DNA from: Hahella sp. KA22
Lineage (GTDB): Bacteria; Pseudomonadota; Gammaproteobacteria; Pseudomonadales; Oleiphilaceae
DNA length: 64,000 nt
Direction of reading: 5' to 3'
NCBI RefSeq assembly: GCF_004135205.1
Contig: NZ_CP035490.1
Coordinates: 3,365,501 to 3,429,500 of the forward strand
How positions within the stretch are numbered: the first letter of the stretch is position 1; the number at the start of each line of letters is the position of its first letter. Under the pieces are notes generated by a model, which saw only the letters and a list, made by a program, of their open reading frames with translations, was not told where the DNA came from and did not search any database. Shown here piece after piece: positions 5,295 to 37,443 of this stretch. The translations under genes were made by a program, and so were the position numbers.

Positions 5295-6542
5295 ATGGAT
5301 TCGGTTGCGAAGCGCATATCGAGTTTGCGGACAGATCCCGATGGAGTCCCAAACGAGCCCTGTGACGGGGTCCAACCTGAACGTAATCAGTACCTCCCTT
5401 TTTTTCAGCCTATCGTCGATATTAACCGGGGAATGGTGGCGGGTTATGAAGCTTTGGCGCGCATTCGACGCGATGACGGTACGGTGACGTCCGCCGGGCC
5501 CTTATTCTCCGATCCCGGCGTTGACCGACGGCGGCTTTTGAATATTGACCGCATGGTGCGCAAGCAGGCGCTAGAAACCGCTCAAACCCTCCCTCCCGAT
5601 TGTTTCCTCACTCTCAACATTTCCCCCGAATGGATGCGCAAAAATTGCGACGAAGAGCAGGTTCCCACGATCCGCATGATTCATGAAGCTGGCATTGATC
5701 CGCAGCGTGTGGTGGTGGAATTTACCGAGAACGGCGGCGACGAGGCCGCGCTGGTGGAGCAGGTGGCTGAATACCGGCGCGCGGGCATGCGAATCGCCAT
5801 TGATGATTTCGGCGCCGGCTATTCGCAATTGAACCGCATCATTTCTCTGGAGCCGGATCTTATTAAGCTGGATATGCGTCTGTTCAAGCGCGCGGCGCGG
5901 GGCGGCATTTCCGGCGAAGTTGTGCAGTCTGTCGGTTACCTGGCGGAGCGAGCGGGCAGTCAGATCATCTGCGAAGGGGTGGAGACGGAGGACGAATTCC
6001 GTTTCGCCATGGAATGCGGCGCCCGTTACATTCAGGGTTACATCTTTAACCCGGCGCTGGAGCGTTTCCTGGCGCCGGATGCGCCGCAGTCGAAAGTCGG
6101 TATGTTGTTGGAGAGCTTTATCCATCGCAAAGTGGAAGAGGAGCGCCGACACATTTACTACATCCATCAGATGGAAAAATGCGTGCTCGATATCAAGGAC
6201 TGCGTGCTGCGCCATGAGAACTTTGTAGGCGCGCTGCCGCACCCGCCGGAAGGCTTCCTGCGGTTTTATATCTGCGATCACACCGGAGTGCAAATCACGC
6301 CCAACTTTGACTGGGATAGCGATGGCGCACATTGGCTGCAGCATATGGGCAATCAAGGGGTGAACTGGGCGGCCAGACCTTATTTCTATCAGATGTTGGC
6401 GATTGAGCGTCTGTTGCAACGGCGAGTCATCAATTCGCGACCGTACCGGGACACCAACACCGGCTTTTTGTGCCAGACCATCAGTACGGTGCTGGACAGC
6501 GAGCGGACCTTGTTGGCGGATATTCGTTACCTGTGCCAATAG
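5295..6542 (+). CDS. EAL-domain protein with C-terminal YkuI_C/Cache-like domain
   Basis: Predicted cytoplasmic c-di-GMP phosphodiesterase of 415 aa with no TM segment. The EAL domain (about residues 36-260) keeps the expected metal-binding and catalytic residues: E52 in EALARI, N108, E142, the D170-D171 pair in DDFGAGYS, K191, E227/E230 in CEGVETEDE and Q247 in QGYIF. The remaining 150 residues look like the PAS/Cache-type C-terminal domain of Bacillus YkuI (helical linker with YYIHQMEK, then a region containing FYICDHTGVQITPNF and WAARPYFYQM). That resemblance is from memory of the family. A GGAG precedes the ATG. It has its own upstream region and no GGDEF partner nearby. Confidence 0.88.
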   Translation: MDSVAKRISSLRTDPDGVPNEPCDGVQPERNQYLPFFQPIVDINRGMVAGYEALARIRRDDGTVTSAGPLFSDPGVDRRRLLNIDRMVRKQALETAQTLPPDCFLTLNISPEWMRKNCDEEQVPTIRMIHEAGIDPQRVVVEFTENGGDEAALVEQVAEYRRAGMRIAIDDFGAGYSQLNRIISLEPDLIKLDMRLFKRAARGGISGEVVQSVGYLAERAGSQIICEGVETEDEFRFAMECGARYIQGYIFNPALERFLAPDAPQSKVGMLLESFIHRKVEEERRHIYYIHQMEKCVLDIKDCVLRHENFVGALPHPPEGFLRFYICDHTGVQITPNFDWDSDGAHWLQHMGNQGVNWAARPYFYQMLAIERLLQRRVINSRPYRDTNTGFLCQTISTVLDSERTLLADIRYLCQ

Positions 6543-6664: not shown

Positions 6665-7846
6665 GTGGTTGAAAAAGTAGATGTGGTCATAATTGGCGCC
6701 GGCGCCGCCGGTTTGATGTGCGCGATTACCGCAGGATATCGCGGCAGGAAGGTCCTGGTGCTGGATCACGCCAATAAAGCGGGCAAGAAAATTCTTATGT
6801 CCGGGGGAGGGCGCTGCAACTTCACCCACCTGAATTCCACGCCGGCCAACTATTTATCCAATAATCCCCACTACTGCATCTCTGCGCTAAGACGCTATAC
6901 CCCTCAGCATTTTGTGGAATGGGTGGAGCGCCATGGCATTGAATATCATGAAAAAACGCCTGGGCAGTTGTTTTGCAACGAGAGCAGTAAAGATATTCTC
7001 AATATGCTGCTGACCGAATGCGACTGGGCCGGCGCGGAAATTCGTCTGCAGTGCAGCATTGATGCAGTGGAGCAGGACGGCGAAGGCTTCCGTCTGCAAA
7101 CCTCAAGCGGCGTTATTCAATGCGAGTCGTTGGTAATCGCCAGCGGCGGGCTGTCGATTCCCACGCTGGGCGCATCGCCCTTCGGTTATAAAATCGCGGA
7201 ACAGTTTGGCCTTAGGGTATTGCCGACGCGGGCGGGACTGGCGCCGTTCACGTTGCAGCCGGAAGATTTGCAGCGCTTCGCGCCTTTGTCCGGCGTCAGT
7301 TGTCCGGTCTCCGTCAGCGTTAATGACGTGACCTTCAAAGAACCGATGCTGTTCACTCATCGTGGTCTCAGCGGCCCAAGCATGCTGCAAATCTCCAGTT
7401 TCTGGAAACCCGGTCAGGATATCACAATCGATTTACTGCCGGACGACGATGTGCTGGCGGAGCTGAAAGCCTGGCGGCAGGAATCGCCCAACAAACGCCT
7501 GGAAACCTACCTCAACGCCAAGCTTCCCAAACGACTGGCGCAGATTTTCACCGAATGGAAAAACTGGAGCGAAACCTTCCAGCAATGCTCCAACCAACGA
7601 CTACAGGAAGTCGCCGACGCCCTGAAAAGCTGGAAGATCAAACCCAACGGCACCGAAGGCTACCGCACCGCTGAAGTCACATTGGGCGGCGTCGACACCG
7701 ACTGCCTCTCCTCCAAAACCATGGCCGCCAAAGACATCCCCAACCTCTACTTCATCGGCGAAGTCGTCGACGTCACCGGCCACCTGGGCGGCCACAACTT
7801 CCAGTGGGCCTGGGCGTCCGGGTTTGCGGCGGGTGGGGAGGTGTGA
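6665..7846 (+). CDS. BaiN/HI0933-family FAD-dependent flavoprotein
   Basis: NAD(P)/FAD-dependent oxidoreductase-like protein of about 393 aa. It has the N-terminal Rossmann motif VVIIGAGAAGLMCAI, the family signature GGGRCNFTHLN, an SGGLSIPTLGASPFGYK block, the EVTLGGVDT block and the C-terminal FAD contact GEVVDVTGHLGGHNFQWA. All are hallmarks of the HI0933/YhiN family, which includes the BaiN bile-acid reductase; the substrate in marine bacteria is unknown. The GTG at 6665 is preferred over an upstream TTG at 6614 because a GGAG lies about 8 bp ahead and family members begin only a few residues before the Rossmann strand. It appears monocistronic. Confidence 0.88.
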   Translation: MVEKVDVVIIGAGAAGLMCAITAGYRGRKVLVLDHANKAGKKILMSGGGRCNFTHLNSTPANYLSNNPHYCISALRRYTPQHFVEWVERHGIEYHEKTPGQLFCNESSKDILNMLLTECDWAGAEIRLQCSIDAVEQDGEGFRLQTSSGVIQCESLVIASGGLSIPTLGASPFGYKIAEQFGLRVLPTRAGLAPFTLQPEDLQRFAPLSGVSCPVSVSVNDVTFKEPMLFTHRGLSGPSMLQISSFWKPGQDITIDLLPDDDVLAELKAWRQESPNKRLETYLNAKLPKRLAQIFTEWKNWSETFQQCSNQRLQEVADALKSWKIKPNGTEGYRTAEVTLGGVDTDCLSSKTMAAKDIPNLYFIGEVVDVTGHLGGHNFQWAWASGFAAGGEV

Positions 7847-30410: not shown

Positions 30411-33400
30411 ATGAAGCTGATAAAAAAGGCCAGCCTGCATTTTCAGGAAGGAAACTCCAACAAAGTTTACGAGGTTGAGCTGAGTGAAGTAGCAAGTCGC
30501 AAGGACGACCGCTTCCTCGTCAATTTCCGCTATGGCCGTCAAGGCGGCGCGCTGCGCGAAGGCACAAAAACGCCTGCGCCGGTGACGCTGGAAGAGGCGG
30601 AAAGGCTGTTCGACAGCGTCGTCGTTTCCAAAACCAACAAAGGCTATTACGACGTCAATAGCGGCGGTCCAGCAGTCTCAGTGAGCAGCGCGGTGGCGAA
30701 GCCCGCCATGCCTGAGGGACCGACCAGTCTGTTGGTGAAGTTGCTGGAAAAGCTGCGTCAGGAGTGGGATAGCGGCAAGCGTGCCCGTCTGATATGGCGT
30801 TTGGGAGAATTGGGGCGCCCTGAAGCCGGGCAAGAATTGGCGGCGTGCGTCGGCAAAGGCGATTGGCTACAGGACTTCGCGGTGGCCTGGGCGCTGGGAC
30901 GCACTCGCGCGACAGATTACATGGAAGATCTGCATCGTTTGCAGAACTCGAAAAACAGCACCGTCAGCGCCATGGCCTTGGAGTCGATCCTGGCCCTGAC
31001 CGATCCCTCGCAAAGGATGACGCTGTTGCAAACGCAATGGAATCAGATGCCGTCGCCATTACAACAGGCGCTGACCTCCGGCGACGACGTGGGCGTGCGA
31101 CTGCAACTGGAAAACGGTCTGAACGCTGCACCCGCAGGCGCTAATGATCTATTGAAGAACGCTTATCTGCTGGCGTTGCATTATCCCTCTCTTTACGAGG
31201 CGTTATACGGCTGGCTTAGTCAGTGCAAACTGGCGCCTGGCGTGTTCAGCGGCGTGCGCTATATCTATAAAGCCGCCGAGTTCCGTCTGGACGCCCGTAT
31301 GTTCGCCCTGTTGGCGCGGCGTTTTGAAACCAGTCGTGAATTCTTCCAATACCAGTGGGACTGGGCCTGGTTGCCGGGAGTGGGCAGTTTCAAGCCAAAA
31401 AGCGAGCTGAAAAAGCCCGAACCCAAAGTCGCCTACTCGAATAAGACCCGCAATTACCTGCGTCGTCGTAGCTGGCGCAGTATCAAGCGCATCGGGCAGG
31501 TGGGCGATTTACGCTATGTCGACATGGCCACGGAAATGCTGCTTACCGTTTCGGATGCGGACGCGGGAGAAACCCGCAAAGCGGATATCTATCGCTGGGA
31601 GCGTAATGGCCGGCGTTATGAGCACAAGCTGGTCGCGCGTAATTTCTATGATCATTACGCGGGCCTGATTGCGTTCAATCACATTCTACGAGGCGATAGC
31701 GCGCATTATAAATTGGCCCCCAGCGGGCGAGCCTGGTTGAAAGTCTCCGACGAGCGCGCGGCGGACGCCCGCGAGGAAGCCTTCTCTCATTTATGGGACC
31801 AACGCCCCGACTGCGCGCTGCGCTTAATGTTGGAGAGCCAGTGTGAGCCGGTGCATGAGTTCGCCAGCAAGGTATTGGCTGCGAACACGTCTTTTTGCGC
31901 GGACATTGCTGTCTCTGATATTGAGCGTCTACTGCGCAGCCGCTATGAAGCGACGCAGCGATTTGCCTTGCAGTTGGCGCGGACCCGCCTGGACGGCAAT
32001 ATCGAACACGGTTTATTGCTGGCGCTGCTGAACAGCGGTCTGGATGAAGCGCGGGCGTTAGGGATGGAAATTCTTGCGCAAATGCCGCAGACGACCCTGG
32101 TCGAAGCGCCCTTACTGGCGGCGTTGTTGCTGGCGCAGTACGAAGAAGTGCGCCGGTTTGCGGCGGACAAGACCGCGCAATATCCCTGGACGGCGGCGGA
32201 TCAGGCGCAATGCCTGCACACTCTGATTGAGCAAGCGTTGCAAGCGGCCCCTAAATTGCCGCCGGCTCTGGCGCAGGAATCCCATGCAGTATGGCTGGCG
32301 GACTTCTGTATCGCCCGCTTCGCCGACGCCTGCCGGGAGTTGTCTCTGCACTTGATCGACCGCCTGCTGGCGGAGCGCAACACGGCGTTGCAACTATTCG
32401 GCGCGCGTTTGCTGGTGGCGCATGGCGTCGGTTTTGGCGATATTCCTGAGCGCCTGCTGCAGCACATTATGCAGTCGGAGTCGTCTGCGGTGCGCGCGTG
32501 CCAGACTTTGCTGTTAGGCAAACAGCCGGACGCCGAACTGATCAAGCAGGCGGGCGTGCTCGCCCTGCAGTTCTTTGAAGGCGAAGCGGATGATCGCAAT
32601 GCCGCCGCCGCTATTCTGAAGCGTCTGGCGCTGGCGCAACGGGAATGGGCGGAGGCGATTCTGCATCACTTATTGCCGTATACATTCCGCAGCGAAAAGC
32701 AGGACGGTCAGCGGGAAGAGTGGCTGGCGTTTTTCAAAGATGCGCTCAGCGCCGCGTTCGACGCCGTGGACGATAATACTTGCTGGCGCCTGTTGCAGGC
32801 GCAATCCACCGGCGCGCAGCAGATAGGCGCGCTGTTGTTGCAGGCGCGCAGTCCATTGCAGTTTAGCGTTCGTCAGTGGGCGCAGTTGGCGAAGCATCCC
32901 GATGTAGTGGTGCGTCAGTACGCCTATGACGCCTATGAAGCCAACCCGGATCGTATTCTGGCGGAGATTCGCGACGGATTGCGCATTCTGGACTCTGACT
33001 GGGATGACTGCCGCGAGTTCGGCTTCGTCTTCTTCCGCAGCCATTATGAGGAAGCAGGCGAAACCCTGTGGACGCCTGAGCTGGTGGTCTACCTGTGCGA
33101 CAGCGTGCGGCCGGACGTACAGCGTTATGGTATGGAGCTGCTGCAGCGCTTCTTCCAGGAACAGAATGGCGTTGAGTATCTGTTGAAGCTCAGTCAGCAT
33201 CCTTCGGCCAATGTGCAGTTTTTCGTCAGCAACTTCCTCAACGAATACGCCGCCGGACATCCAGAGCGCATTCTCAGTCTGCAAGGTTACTTCACCACGG
33301 TGCTGTCGCAGGTGAATCGCAGTCGCGTCTGTAAGGATCGCATTCTGGCGTTTTTGTCCGAACAATCGCTGCTCAATGAACAGGTGGCCAATATGGCGGC

Positions 33401-33542
33401 GGACTTGTTCACCCGCATTTCCCTGACCGTCGTGCACAAAGACAAGGCCTCCCTCATCAAGGCCTTGCTGGATCTGCGTCGTCACTATCCGCAACTGGGA
33501 ACGCCGCTCAGCGTCAAGCCCGCCGAAGTAAGAGAATATTAA
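30411..33542 (+). CDS. Retron-associated WGR plus HEAT/ARM-repeat protein
   Basis: Large protein of 1043 aa. The first 85 residues fit a WGR domain (KKASLHFQEGNSNKVYEV, then FRYGRQGG with Y41-G42-R43 in the place of the Trp-Gly-Arg signature). WGR is a nucleic-acid-end sensing module known from PARP-type and other proteins. From about residue 100 onward the protein is a long alpha-solenoid of HEAT/ARM-type helical repeats (for example IWRLGELGRPEAGQELAACVG and VVVRQYAYDAYEANPDRI). It is the first gene of the operon and ends 10 bp before the SWIM gene. I recall this as the ARM component of type XIII retrons; by analogy it would be an effector or sensor controlled by msDNA. No catalytic motif is seen. 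Confidence 0.85.
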   Translation: MKLIKKASLHFQEGNSNKVYEVELSEVASRKDDRFLVNFRYGRQGGALREGTKTPAPVTLEEAERLFDSVVVSKTNKGYYDVNSGGPAVSVSSAVAKPAMPEGPTSLLVKLLEKLRQEWDSGKRARLIWRLGELGRPEAGQELAACVGKGDWLQDFAVAWALGRTRATDYMEDLHRLQNSKNSTVSAMALESILALTDPSQRMTLLQTQWNQMPSPLQQALTSGDDVGVRLQLENGLNAAPAGANDLLKNAYLLALHYPSLYEALYGWLSQCKLAPGVFSGVRYIYKAAEFRLDARMFALLARRFETSREFFQYQWDWAWLPGVGSFKPKSELKKPEPKVAYSNKTRNYLRRRSWRSIKRIGQVGDLRYVDMATEMLLTVSDADAGETRKADIYRWERNGRRYEHKLVARNFYDHYAGLIAFNHILRGDSAHYKLAPSGRAWLKVSDERAADAREEAFSHLWDQRPDCALRLMLESQCEPVHEFASKVLAANTSFCADIAVSDIERLLRSRYEATQRFALQLARTRLDGNIEHGLLLALLNSGLDEARALGMEILAQMPQTTLVEAPLLAALLLAQYEEVRRFAADKTAQYPWTAADQAQCLHTLIEQALQAAPKLPPALAQESHAVWLADFCIARFADACRELSLHLIDRLLAERNTALQLFGARLLVAHGVGFGDIPERLLQHIMQSESSAVRACQTLLLGKQPDAELIKQAGVLALQFFEGEADDRNAAAAILKRLALAQREWAEAILHHLLPYTFRSEKQDGQREEWLAFFKDALSAAFDAVDDNTCWRLLQAQSTGAQQIGALLLQARSPLQFSVRQWAQLAKHPDVVVRQYAYDAYEANPDRILAEIRDGLRILDSDWDDCREFGFVFFRSHYEEAGETLWTPELVVYLCDSVRPDVQRYGMELLQRFFQEQNGVEYLLKLSQHPSANVQFFVSNFLNEYAAGHPERILSLQGYFTTVLSQVNRSRVCKDRILAFLSEQSLLNEQVANMAADLFTRISLTVVHKDKASLIKALLDLRRHYPQLGTPLSVKPAEVREY

Positions 33543-33552
33543 GGAGCCGTTG

Positions 33553-35226
33553 ATGGAGTTTCGTTACCGTTATCACGGACACAGCCGCGTGGACAGCAAT
33601 GCGGGCAAGACGGATCTGTCCTTCGCCCCGGACAGCCTGCGGCCGCCGACCCACTTCGTCGGCAAACTGAGAAAACATATCGCCTTTCGCGAAGCGATTT
33701 CCGCGCTGCATAACGTGGTCATTTCCGACATGCGTTTTCAGCCTAAAGACAAAGAAGAATACAAACGCTGGCTGGCTCAGGAAGAGCAGAACATGCTTGC
33801 GGAATTCATGTCCCGCAAAGAATCGCTGCAGACGGAGATTCGCTCTCTGCGCAGCGAGCTGGACGATCTGAACAAGCAGAGCGACAAAGTACTCAAGCCG
33901 TATTACGACGCTCAACGCAATTACTTTAACTATCTATACAAGCATGACCTGGACGCCTGGTATGTGCTGGACCCGGTGATCACGGTGCATCCGGACCAGG
34001 TATTCTTCGAATGCTTTTCCGAAGATGAATCCAGTTACGGCAAATTGAGCTGCGGTTACGAGGTGTTTGAAACCATCAGCGATACCGCCTGCGGCACCAC
34101 GAACATCGATTACTCCCAGGGTCTGTATAACGAGTTCCAGAAAATCCGCGATTATCGGGAAACGCTGTTGCAGGTAGACCCTGGCGGCTTTAGCGTGCAG
34201 ACTGGCGATGACGACCAGTTCGATGAGAAGAAAATCGACTTGCCGGAAAGCTGGGTGCGCGGATTTCTGCAGGTCAGTTCGGCGATGACGTTGCCGATGG
34301 TGAAGGTCGAATTGCAGCCCATGGACGTGCATAACCTGTGTTATGTGCTGCGTCGCAAGAAAGAGCGGGTCGGACCGCGGGCGATGCGTTACGAGCTGGA
34401 GCCCGGTAAGCCGGTGCGGGTGATATTCGAACCCTGGGGCGAAGAGGTGGTGTGCAGCCGTTCTATCTACCAGGGCCATGAGGCGCGCAGTATTCGTGTG
34501 TGGGGGCGTCGTCGCCTGCATATTCTGGAGCGCTTGATTCCTGTTGCGGACAGGTTCGTCGTGCATCTCATGGGTGATGGCCTGCCCAGTTTCTATGTGG
34601 CGGAAATGGGAGACCTGACCTTTACCTTGGGTCTGTCCGGCTGGAGCGCCAACGACTGGTCGCGTATGGGTAACTTTGACCTGATGGCGCCGCGAGCGGA
34701 AGTGGACGAGATCACGCTGCGCCGCGTCTATCAGGGGCTGCAGGAAAACTGGCTGGAAAGCCCCGGTAGTCTGGCTGTCCGATTGGGTCTTGACGAGACC
34801 GTGGTGCAGTCCGCGCTGTCCATTTATAGCCAGCAGGGACAGGTTCTGTTCGATCTGGCGGAAGGGGTTTACCGTATCCGCGAATTGAGTCGCGAGCCGT
34901 TGCCGATGACGCAGTTGCGATACGCCAATGAGCGCGAGGAGATGGCGGAGAATTTCAACAAAGCCAATCTAGTGAAACTGAGCGCCGTGGACGTCAACGA
35001 CGGCGTGCTGTCATTGCAGGGAGAAGTGACCGACAACGCCGTCGCTTACCGACCCAAAGTGTCGATAGACGCCGATCAACGACTGCGTCAGGGTGAATGC
35101 CAGTGCCACTTCTATGTGCACAATCGTCTGCGCAAAGGCCCCTGTGAACACATGCTGGCGCTGCGTAAGCAACATCAGATACAGCATCCTTATGTGCTCG
35201 CTGGCGCAGAGGAGGCAGGGCGATGA
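33553..35226 (+). CDS. Retron-associated winged-helix SWIM zinc-finger protein
   Basis: Protein of 557 aa. The C-terminal SWIM finger reads C516-x-C518-x12-C531-x-H533 (CQC...GPCEHMLAL), a zinc site found in DNA- or protein-binding modules. Just before it, roughly residues 390-450 (LRRVYQGLQENWLES, then LAVRLGLDETVVQSALSIYSQQ) look like a winged helix. A charged helical region with a coiled-coil tendency (about residues 60-115, KEEYKRWLAQEEQNML) precedes the central domain. The ATG at 33553 is preceded by AAGGAG; a TTG at 33550 is weaker. The WGR gene ends 10 bp upstream. This matches the WH-SWIM component recalled for type XIII retrons. Confidence 0.85.
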   Translation: MEFRYRYHGHSRVDSNAGKTDLSFAPDSLRPPTHFVGKLRKHIAFREAISALHNVVISDMRFQPKDKEEYKRWLAQEEQNMLAEFMSRKESLQTEIRSLRSELDDLNKQSDKVLKPYYDAQRNYFNYLYKHDLDAWYVLDPVITVHPDQVFFECFSEDESSYGKLSCGYEVFETISDTACGTTNIDYSQGLYNEFQKIRDYRETLLQVDPGGFSVQTGDDDQFDEKKIDLPESWVRGFLQVSSAMTLPMVKVELQPMDVHNLCYVLRRKKERVGPRAMRYELEPGKPVRVIFEPWGEEVVCSRSIYQGHEARSIRVWGRRRLHILERLIPVADRFVVHLMGDGLPSFYVAEMGDLTFTLGLSGWSANDWSRMGNFDLMAPRAEVDEITLRRVYQGLQENWLESPGSLAVRLGLDETVVQSALSIYSQQGQVLFDLAEGVYRIRELSREPLPMTQLRYANEREEMAENFNKANLVKLSAVDVNDGVLSLQGEVTDNAVAYRPKVSIDADQRLRQGECQCHFYVHNRLRKGPCEHMLALRKQHQIQHPYVLAGAEEAGR

Positions 35227-35294
35227 ACGCAATTTTTCCTGTTAAATCAACGGCGGGGTTTGCTTGCTCCGCCCAGGTTGTTATACTGCCCGAC

Positions 35295-35524
35295 GGCGGT
35301 AGCGCGACAAAACTACCTTGCAATCCGAGCGGTGGATCGCCGTTCTTGCTATTAGACTTATCACGCTTCACTGGCCAGATCTTTACTGGGCCGTACTGCA
35401 CCACCTATCGCTATTGCGGTTTGGTTTCTACGAAACCAATGAGCGATAGGTGGTGCGTACGGCGTCGAGTTGATCAGTCCAGTTCTGAGAATTCTACGAA
35501 GGGAAACCATGTCGCGCTACCGCC
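35295..35524 (+). ncRNA. Predicted retron msr-msd RNA (a1 to a2)
   Basis: A perfect 15-bp long-range inverted repeat, GGCGGTAGCGCGACA at 35295-35309 and TGTCGCGCTACCGCC at 35510-35524, brackets the region between the SWIM gene and the RT gene. This is exactly the arrangement of the a1/a2 stem that closes retron msr-msd RNAs. Inside, the msr portion has a small hairpin (CCAG 35375-35378 with CTGG 35386-35389). The msd portion is a 72-nt imperfect hairpin at 35391-35462, listed separately. A further stem at 35252-35273 lies just 5' of a1. The RT starts 155 bp after a2. The branching guanosine and exact ends cannot be fixed by eye. Confidence 0.8.
35391..35462 (+). repeat. msd-like extended hairpin inside the retron RNA
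   Basis: Long stem: 35391-35396 (CCGTAC) pairs with 35457-35462, then, after a bulged T at 35397, 35398-35412 pairs with 35442-35456 over 15 perfect base pairs. The apical hairpin is TTGGTTTC (35421-35428), loop TAC, GAAACCAA (35432-35439). The internal loop is asymmetric (35413-35420 against 35440-35441). Such a hairpin is the typical template for msDNA in retrons. Confidence 0.85.
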
Positions 35525-35679
35525 TTCTTTTTGCGCCGTTCCGGCGCGCTCCTTTGCGTCCTCGTTATCATTCCCCGCTTCTCGCTCATTATCCGTCATT
35601 GTCGGCAATCGATCCGTTTCCGCGCGCGTCGGTCATTGCAGTACGCGGTTGTCATTGGCATTGAGAGGAGGGCGTTGAG

Positions 35680-37443
35680 ATGAGCGAAGAGAAAAAACTG
35701 ACCCGTCAGGAAATCTACCAACGCATCCGCGAAACCAGCAAGGACGAATATATTCTTTCCGAAATGGTGCGCCTTGGCTTCTGGCCGGATAACTCGGAAA
35801 AGCCTTCTTTGTCTGAAGCGTTTATCAAAAAACGCACCGAATTACAGGCGGCGTTGCGGGAGTTGGGACAGCAGCAAATGCTGTACTCCGATCCAGAGAA
35901 AGCGCTGAAGGAAATGCATAAGCAGCGCAAGCAGGCGGCGTTGGCGAAGCGGGAAGAGACGCGCCGCAAGCGCAACGAGGAACGCTTCCAGCGGGCGCAG
36001 CATTGGCGCGACGTGCAGGCGCATCAGATCACCTATCTCGGTGAGGGCGTGTCAGGGGGGCTGGAGGACGCGACTGCGGACGAAGCGCGTCTGCGCAGCC
36101 AGAATCTGCCGGTCATTAACGCCGCAGAAGAGCTGGCTGCCGCGATGGGCGTGACGCTCAACGAATTGCGTTTCCTCGCCTACAACAAAGAGGTGTCCAA
36201 GCTCAGCCACTATCAACAGTTCGCCATCGCCAAGAAGACCGGCGGCGTGCGCGAAATTTCCGCTCCCATGCCGCGCATGAAGAGGGCGCAGTACTGGATT
36301 CTGGATAATATTCTGGCGCCGCTGTCTCTGCATGAGGCCGCTCATGGTTTTGTCGTCGAGCGCTCCATAGTGTCTAACGCGCAGCCTCATGTAGGTAAAG
36401 GCGTGGTCATCAACCTGGACTTGAAAGACTTTTTCCCAACCGTTTCCTATGCGCGCATTAAGGGCGCGTTTCGCCATCTCGGCTACAGCGAACAAGTCGC
36501 CACGATACTGGGGCTGCTGTGTTCGCAGCAGAAAGTGCAGGAAGTGGAAATGGACGGCCAGAAATGGTTTGTCAGCGAAGGTGAACGTTTCTTGCCTCAG
36601 GGCGCGCCTACCAGTCCGGCGATCAGTAATGTGATCTGCCGGAAACTCGATCGCCGTCTGCAAAGCATGGCTGCCAAACTTGGATTCACCTATACCCGTT
36701 ACGCGGACGACGTGACCTTCTCCGCTGACGGCAAATCCGACGATGACGTCAAGCGTCTGTTGTGGCGCTGCCGTAGCATCATCAAGGATGAAGGTTTTGT
36801 GGTGCACCCGGACAAAACCCGGATCATGCGCAAGCATCGCAGACAGGAAGTCACCGGCGTCGTGGTGAATGACAAGGCTTCGGTGGAAAGAAAACAACTG
36901 AAGCGGTTTCGCGCACTGTTGTTTCAAATCGATAGAGACGGTCCCGCTGGAAAATCCTGGGGGCGGGGAGAGCTGTTCGCCGCCATCGATGGATTCGCTA
37001 ACTATGTGGCGATGGTGAATCCTGAAAAAGGTGTGCCGTTGCAGCAAAAAGTGGCGCAGTTGAAGTTGAAATACGGCGTGAAGGTGAAGCCGTCCCGGGT
37101 GTTGGCGTTGAATAAAAAACGCATGCGTCTGAAGGCGGCGAAAGGCGAAGCGCCTCGTGAAGACTGGTGGCAGGCGCAAGCAGTCGCCGCGCCGGAACTG
37201 GAGAAGACGGCGGAGCAGGTGAAGGAGGAGCGCAAGGCGGAGAAAGCGGCGCAGCAGGCGCAGGCGACCCCTGTTGCATCTTCTGTAGAGGTCGAACCTA
37301 CGCAAGCGCCCGCGCCGATAAGCCCGCAACAGCAAGCGCAGCCATCCGCGCCTGGGCCTGAAGGCGAGTCACACGCCAAAACAGGCTGGATCATGCTGGC
37401 TCTCGGCATACTCATCTATCTTGCGATGAAGATGCTGGCGTAA
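35680..37443 (+). CDS. Retron-type reverse transcriptase with C-terminal membrane anchor
   Basis: Reverse transcriptase of 587 aa. Retron hallmarks are visible: N233-AQPH (NAxxH motif), D247 in LDLKDFF (motif A), PQGAPTSPAISN (motif B), YADD at residues 341-344 (catalytic Asp pair) and VTG at 391-393. The first 160 residues are an extra N-terminal helical, charged region. After the RT and thumb (to about 480) come a charged helix, a Pro/Gln-rich linker and a hydrophobic tail (W570-A587, IMLALGILIYLAM) predicted to insert in the membrane. GAGAGGAGG precedes the ATG. It should copy the msd of the RNA encoded just upstream into msDNA. Confidence 0.92.
   Translation: MSEEKKLTRQEIYQRIRETSKDEYILSEMVRLGFWPDNSEKPSLSEAFIKKRTELQAALRELGQQQMLYSDPEKALKEMHKQRKQAALAKREETRRKRNEERFQRAQHWRDVQAHQITYLGEGVSGGLEDATADEARLRSQNLPVINAAEELAAAMGVTLNELRFLAYNKEVSKLSHYQQFAIAKKTGGVREISAPMPRMKRAQYWILDNILAPLSLHEAAHGFVVERSIVSNAQPHVGKGVVINLDLKDFFPTVSYARIKGAFRHLGYSEQVATILGLLCSQQKVQEVEMDGQKWFVSEGERFLPQGAPTSPAISNVICRKLDRRLQSMAAKLGFTYTRYADDVTFSADGKSDDDVKRLLWRCRSIIKDEGFVVHPDKTRIMRKHRRQEVTGVVVNDKASVERKQLKRFRALLFQIDRDGPAGKSWGRGELFAAIDGFANYVAMVNPEKGVPLQQKVAQLKLKYGVKVKPSRVLALNKKRMRLKAAKGEAPREDWWQAQAVAAPELEKTAEQVKEERKAEKAAQQAQATPVASSVEVEPTQAPAPISPQQQAQPSAPGPEGESHAKTGWIMLALGILIYLAMKMLA

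Follow-up and report, generated by a model that had tools for sequence, protein, structure and literature searches.

A probable noncoding RNA of a type XIII retron in Hahella sp. KA22 and its recurrence across phyla

We find that 35295-35524 of the window, by which we mean the whole 64-kb stretch of DNA analysed (3365501-3429500 of the 6.96-Mb single-contig genome of Hahella sp. KA22), is very likely the noncoding RNA of a type XIII retron, and that this RNA recurs in four phyla. The Hahella locus is a member of the known retron type XIII, with the WGR/HEAT gene, the SWIM gene, the RNA and the reverse transcriptase (RT) gene following one another in this order on the + strand. Judging from sequence, the neighbouring RT most likely makes a small branched RNA-DNA molecule from the RNA for phage defence. 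The RNA, its fold, the operon and the co-occurrence of its parts can be read from the sequences directly, and what is new to us is the fold and range of the RNA, the clamp-like prediction for the SWIM partner and a motif in the RT tail.

The type XIII operon

All three genes match PADLOC retron type XIII models together (RT_XIII, SWIM_XIII and WGR_XIII); the classification of retrons into types reportedly goes back to Mestre et al. 2020.

30411..33542, + strand: protein with WGR and a HEAT/ARM solenoid, 1043 aa, PADLOC WGR_XIII (PADLOC E = 0; Pfam HEAT_2 and WGR above cut-off; AF2 mean pLDDT 85.6)
33553..35226, + strand: SWIM protein, 557 aa, PADLOC SWIM_XIII (PADLOC E = 2e-238; Pfam SWIM; AF2 mean pLDDT 69.7)
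35680..37443, + strand: retron reverse transcriptase, 587 aa, PADLOC RT_XIII (PADLOC E = 4e-196; Pfam RVT_1; NAQPH, YADD and VTG motifs; WW motif; C-terminal membrane helix)

The operon is flanked by a glycosyltransferase gene upstream and an Asp/Glu racemase gene downstream (Pfam), and a comparison of operons indicates that the WGR/HEAT and SWIM partner genes are kept alongside the RT in relatives. As in the type XIII relatives examined, the RNA is flanked by SWIM and RT, with 155 nt separating the a2 arm from the start of the RT gene. Neither the SWIM nor the WGR/HEAT protein has a nuclease or other catalytic domain in PADLOC and Pfam family searches, and the 50 Foldseek matches listed for the WGR/HEAT model are HEAT-type solenoids with a low TM-score. 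The same genome contains two further reverse transcriptases (C1:259850-260857 and C1:2956946-2957605), one of which is retron-like (RT_XIII match, E 7e-91).

Among solved proteins, the closest to the RT by sequence is the Ec86 RT (PDB, E 1e-67), that of retron Eco1. Retron Eco1 (Ec86) has an msr/msd with a1/a2 architecture, as here, but other partner proteins and another RNA sequence; the Hahella RNA has no Rfam match at gathering score. The motifs YADD, NAXXH and VTG are given for retron RTs in PMC12405507, and the type XIII retron occurs in the literature as a PADLOC label in Variovorax.

Structure of the RNA element

The earlier note had proposed a retron RNA on the basis of a perfect 15-bp inverted repeat with arms about 200 nt apart, enclosing a hairpin at 35391-35462 with stems of 6, 15 and 8 bp. 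We observe that 35295-35309 and 35510-35524 are indeed perfect reverse complements over 15 nt, the repeat extending to 18 nt at 94% with 200 nt separating the arms, and that the three stems are found at their proposed places, with CCGTAC (35391-35396) pairing with GTACGG (35457-35462) at the base, then one bulged T, a 15-bp stem of 35398-35412 with 35442-35456, and an 8-bp apical stem within 35421-35439. This architecture had been called unlikely by chance; apart from these two repeats, the 64-kb window has no perfect 15-mer inverted repeat at a spacing of 20-400 nt, and none of 20 first-order Markov shuffles of the window contains any. Upon folding 35240-35540, a check that had been suggested, we obtained -134 kcal/mol (z -7.6), an energy reached by none of 100 dinucleotide shuffles. 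Both features by which the element had been defined are thus exact, but the RNA is larger than the two suggest: its conserved part spans 35316-35502, and the a1/a2 pairing runs inward past a loop to CCTT (35316-35319) and AAGG (35499-35502). Rfam returned nothing at gathering score anywhere in the window; at a relaxed threshold there were six matches (four microRNA families on the hairpin, RsmY and snoRNA sR41), all far below gathering score, which we rejected. The parts of the RNA are as follows.

35259..35287, + strand: candidate promoter, TTTGCT, 17-nt spacer, TATACT (script scan; the start would be near 35294-35295)
35295..35309, + strand: a1 distal arm (inverted repeat; pairing tests)
35316..35320, + strand: CCTTG, comprising the a1 proximal arm CCTT (duplex prediction with AAGG) and the probable 2'-5' branch G at 35320 (by analogy)
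35327..35345, + strand: msr hairpin, 8 bp with a 3-nt loop (RNAalifold; 5 of 8 pairs double-changed; 99.7% of cells paired)
35370..35374, + strand: 5' arm of helix 2, pairing with 35479-35483 (RNAalifold; 98.6% of cells paired)
35377..35387, + strand: 5' arm of helix 3, pairing with 35467-35476 (RNAalifold; 91.7% of cells paired)
35390..35463, + strand: msd hairpin, stem of ~27 nt per arm and apical hairpin (RNAalifold; 30 of 31 pairs of helices 4 and 5 double-changed)
35467..35476, + strand: 3' arm of helix 3 (RNAalifold, covariation)
35479..35483, + strand: 3' arm of helix 2, CCAGT (RNAalifold, covariation)
35499..35502, + strand: a2 proximal arm AAGG (duplex predictions; putative start of reverse transcription opposite 35498)
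35510..35524, + strand: a2 distal arm (inverted repeat)

Among 11 sequences TTGC does not vary; the first bases of CCTTG do. When scanning 25 loci for promoters, we found the promoter-like site in all four Hahella copies and a similar one in L081 and L082, a good alternative candidate in L104, a weak one in L102 and none in the rest. Upon examining the msd, we find a 5' arm of 27 or 28 nt in 41 of 44 rows and, likewise in 41 of 44, an apical part of 19-21 nt, and mean column identity is 0.59 in the msd stem versus 0.79 and 0.81 in the flanking conserved parts, many of these rows being related myxobacteria in an alignment fitted to the model. As read from these aligned sequences, the msd stem conserves its length, not its sequence.

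Covariation and pairing of the a1 and a2 arms

Covariation among relatives, the feature on which the earlier note had made its reading depend, is strong. With no structure imposed, RNAalifold on a MAFFT alignment of 11 sequences yielded 53 pairs, 39 of them with at least one change on both sides, and with 15 sequences 41 of 53 pairs were changed on both sides. Across 44 covariance-model matches (42 distinct), 96.1% of cells are paired and 46 of 53 pairs are double-changed, with a covariation score of 0.700 in the 42 distinct sequences compared with 0.182 when shuffled and 0.072-0.139 when slid; the 42-sequence alignment leans towards the model because it was fitted to it, unlike the 11-sequence RNAalifold result. 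Further pair types showed no excess (118 versus 113.1 in shuffles, with 76 of 500 shuffles as high). The set of 44 rows comprises matches at E <= 1e-11 after 6 of 50 rows had been dropped, namely L134 and L135 as short partial sequences, two L136 rows as repeats of L131, and L098 and L113 as reverse-strand partial sequences.

Next, we investigated the pairing of the outer arms. The a1/a2 arms vary between species yet on average pair better with their own partner than when swapped, the mean duplex energy of own a1 with own a2 being -47.7 kcal/mol versus -26.5 for swapped arms (44 loci, single-base shuffles for z). The a1/a2 z-score was <= -2.0 in 37 of 44 loci and weaker in seven (L099, L103, L106, L125, L127, L132 and L133). 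The own a2 ranked first in 19 of 44 loci and among the top three in 32 of 44; that it is often not the best partner is partly because myxobacterial arms are nearly alike. With wide flanks, z was <= -2.6 in 14 of 15 loci (the exception, L018, having -0.6), and the own a1 x a2 was the best combination in 9 of 12 rows. Additionally, the CCTT/AAGG pairing or its counterpart stands beside the conserved TTGC in most loci. The proposal of a retron RNA therefore gains support from the adjacent retron RT, the PADLOC type XIII models, the compensatory changes and the a1/a2 pairing.

An open reading frame across the RNA

35223..35678, + strand: 151-codon frame over the RNA, probably no gene (pN/pS; frame status in relatives)

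This frame was earlier dismissed as probably spurious, conserved translation being the finding that would have favoured it, and we observe little coding constraint outside the RNA. A real small gene between SWIM and RT, with the fold incidental or secondary, would fit the following features of the frame: it occupies the interval from the SWIM stop codon to just ahead of the RT start, its start and stop are identical in the four Hahella copies, and 12 of 25 relatives, those four included, keep it open over the RNA. The frame continues past the RNA as well in L081 and L082, where its ends are hydrophobic; this is probably chance. However, pN/pS in the frame outside the RNA is 0.59-0.60, compared with 0.04 for SWIM and 0.055 for RT (1200-nt parts), the frame is closed in 13 of 25 relatives, and no family matches it at E <= 0.001 (PADLOC, Pfam, NCBIfam). 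Among the four Hahella copies, nucleotide difference is 0.2% within the RNA, 8-9% in the 1200-nt parts of SWIM and RT, and 16% 3' of the RNA (35525-35678); the three differences in total over six pairwise comparisons within the RNA are as expected of a structured RNA. Overall, we consider a small gene very improbable, and the 151-codon frame is probably not a gene.

Distribution of the RNA and the operon

Within the genus, a full RT_XIII is found in 4 of 7 Hahella genomes, and the RT of Hahella sp. HN01 (L001) is 95% identical to that of the window. Scanning genome contigs gave 18 loci with an RT relative, 10 of which have WGR, SWIM and RT matches (L010 being truncated) and 8 RT alone in the stretch examined, and a search of 293 genomes of the order added two further long-tailed RTs (L081 and L082). 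A covariance model of the RNA, R1 (186 positions), finds the divergent L003, which was outside its training set, at 93.8 bits, and gives nothing in L083-L089 or L010-L017.

Scanning three phyla, we find R1 matches in 4 of 398 genomes of the window's own phylum, in 14 of 195 of Myxococcota, to which L004 (Archangium) belongs, and in 15 of 386 of the phylum that includes L006 (Phormidium), with 16 matches in the latter. Each of the 34 R1 matches from the three scans has a relative of the window's SWIM or RT close by (E <= 1e-5), the neighbours being judged by tblastn rather than PADLOC, with wider stretches needed for L129 and L136 and short partial RNAs in L134 and L135. The genomes of four of these matches (G000, G666, G668 and G670) had served in building R1, which leaves 30 new ones. 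In Myxococcota, 78 of 195 genomes have an RT_XIII match at E <= 1e-60, and the RNA is present in precisely the 14 with a best RT_XIII match at E <= 4e-167, with adjoining coordinates.

In some cyanobacterial copies, the RT is kilobases away from the RNA or was not found within the stretch examined. This bears on whether the hairpin, which sits between two genes of one operon, is merely a terminator, attenuator or processing site of the SWIM-RT messenger RNA and no msDNA template. Such a role is scarcely credible in our view: the 186 model positions include the msr hairpin, conserved single-stranded boxes and a private a1/a2 helix, the RNA also occurs at these distances from the RT, and no T run follows the msd stem in the window. 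A retron RNA is the reading that we retain.

Several loci depart from the common arrangement. L138, from the Phormidium phylum scan, has two tandem RNA copies (6280-6511 and 7606-7791) beside SWIM and WGR, with no RT within 14 kb, and in L139 and L140 some 2 to 2.5 kb separate the RNA from an RT further downstream. The locus of [Flexibacter] sp. ATCC 35208 (L010, 959-2389) is a deleted copy: an in-frame fusion joins the start of SWIM to an RT without its first 68 residues, most of SWIM is gone, and the genome has no R1 match. Upon searching mobile elements, viral contigs yielded no RT relative, phage records gave five RTs at E <= 1e-30 with 31-36% identity over 43-54% of the protein, and plasmids contained one RT relative (E <= 1e-60) and one full-length SWIM among five (E <= 1e-10), both from Methylobacterium bullatum.

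A second set of loci within PADLOC type XIII, L083-L089 and L173-L188, was grouped by lower identity. In the search of the 293 genomes of the order, L083-L089 have RTs of 38-43% and SWIM proteins of 30-36% identity and no WGR match. They resemble the window type in that L084 matches RT_XIII and SWIM_XIII and L088 matches SWIM_XIII, but differ in the HEAT-ARM_XIII gene of L084 and L088, whose extended SWIM protein ends in WGR as read by eye, and in that the RNA model has no match in L083-L089. In 15 of 16 of L173-L188 the SWIM-RT gap is about 300-730 nt, and the myxobacterial L178-L188 except L180 differ from the window type in having their own conserved stretch in a gap of about 375-412 nt. 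None of the 16 RTs (L173-L188, last 60 residues) has the WW or hydrophobic tail, a further difference. The label "Mx162-like", tried as a contrast for the weaker myxobacterial RT matches, did not hold up as such, all 16 examined having a SWIM relative nearby.

Predicted clamp fold of the SWIM protein and the RT tail

Allowing E up to 0.5, we detected Pfam SWIM in all 20 homologs, the window protein scoring below the curated cut-off. Its AlphaFold model is of moderate confidence (mean pLDDT 69.7, pTM 0.66), and in Foldseek against the PDB the best 50 of 481 matches (E <= 0.001) are all clamps, the best at E 5e-9 with a probability of 1.00; among the matches listed, TM by target is 0.63-0.71 for most PCNA rows. 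Furthermore, in a viral structure library 28 of the best 50 matches bear a clamp or processivity-factor name, the first and others being uncharacterised, unnamed or otherwise named. From the order of strands and helices, we read residues ~34-361 as two predicted clamp domains with a coiled-coil insert, and the C-terminal part is predicted to form a winged-helix-like region followed by the SWIM zinc finger. The likeness to DNA sliding clamps (PCNA, DnaN) is thus one of predicted fold, in one model of moderate confidence; the SWIM protein differs from them in having no detected sequence similarity, Pfam and PDB sequence profiles giving no clamp signal, and in the added coiled-coil insert, winged helix and zinc finger. 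On account of this predicted fold, we favour a reading in which the partners would grip DNA or the msDNA stem rather than cut it.

At the other end of the operon, 37140-37443 of the window encodes the RT C-terminus with the WW motif and a membrane helix. The RT_XIII match stops at residue 528 of 587, and the Hahella RT differs from PADLOC type XIII in carrying this helix beyond the model-matched part. Among 32 distinct complete RTs (19 including that of the window, 12 from L159-L172, and L146), 16 end in the WW motif (10 of them exactly in KKKWWKLF), 10 have a strongly hydrophobic tail (those of the window, L078-L082, L097-L099 and L171) and 6 have neither; the RT of L009, complete and outside this set, also has neither tail. 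WW precedes the hydrophobic tail in 9 of 10 such RTs, L171 lying outside the check, and in Hahella the last 26 residues of the RT are constrained (pN/pS 0.08), more so than the linker (0.30, three sequences). The WW tail may resemble clamp-binding peptides.

A proposed mechanism

PMC12405507 describes a guanosine of Eco2 that is joined through a 2'-5' link to the first base of the DNA, and by analogy the branch here is probably at G35320, with 35498 as the probable first template base. We infer the ends of the DNA and the promoter. A promoter just upstream would start the RNA near a1, the pairing of a1 with a2 would place G35320 beside the end of the template, and the RT would prime on the 2'-OH of G35320 opposite 35498 and, proceeding backwards along the msd, copy the long hairpin as far as about 35385-35390, giving an msDNA of roughly 110 nt with a DNA stem of about 27 bp. 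More speculatively, the RT and msDNA may form a complex that keeps the SWIM and WGR/HEAT proteins silent, and phage interference with the msDNA or with DNA metabolism may free these partners, upon which growth would stop.

Our searches, whose coverage excludes most subscription and non-commercial-licence papers, returned neither a mechanism of retron type XIII nor a phage challenge of it. The msDNA might accordingly serve a task other than phage defence, for instance housekeeping DNA metabolism, and the predicted clamp-like and WGR partners, which recall DNA maintenance, and the full RT_XIII in 4 of 7 Hahella genomes point that way. We nevertheless regard such a task as unlikely, as the patchy presence in the three phylum scans (4/398, 14/195 and 15/386 genomes) fits an accessory defence system and other retron types defend against phages according to PMC12548924. 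For phage defence, the reading that we prefer, a more specific proposal is that type XIII retrons work through a clamp, which we put forward tentatively as a possibility suggested by the structure model. The SWIM protein would form a clamp-like ring on the 27-bp stem of the msDNA, whose length is fixed, with the WW tail of the RT docking to the ring in the manner of clamp-binding peptides. Phage infection would cause the ring to move to DNA of the chromosome or the phage, the WGR/HEAT protein serving as loader or as binder of DNA ends, and to block replication without cutting. Judged by title and abstract, a search mostly without subscription and non-commercial-licence papers found no literature linking a retron to a sliding clamp, SWIM or WGR in this sense.

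Overall, the type XIII RNA can now be read and searched for across phyla, and since the covariance model finds it across phyla beside the right genes, type XIII msDNA becomes predictable and measurable. Should the clamp fold prove right, one retron type would employ a relative of the replication clamp as partner protein. Such a mode of action would be new for retrons and would tie msDNA to the replication machinery.
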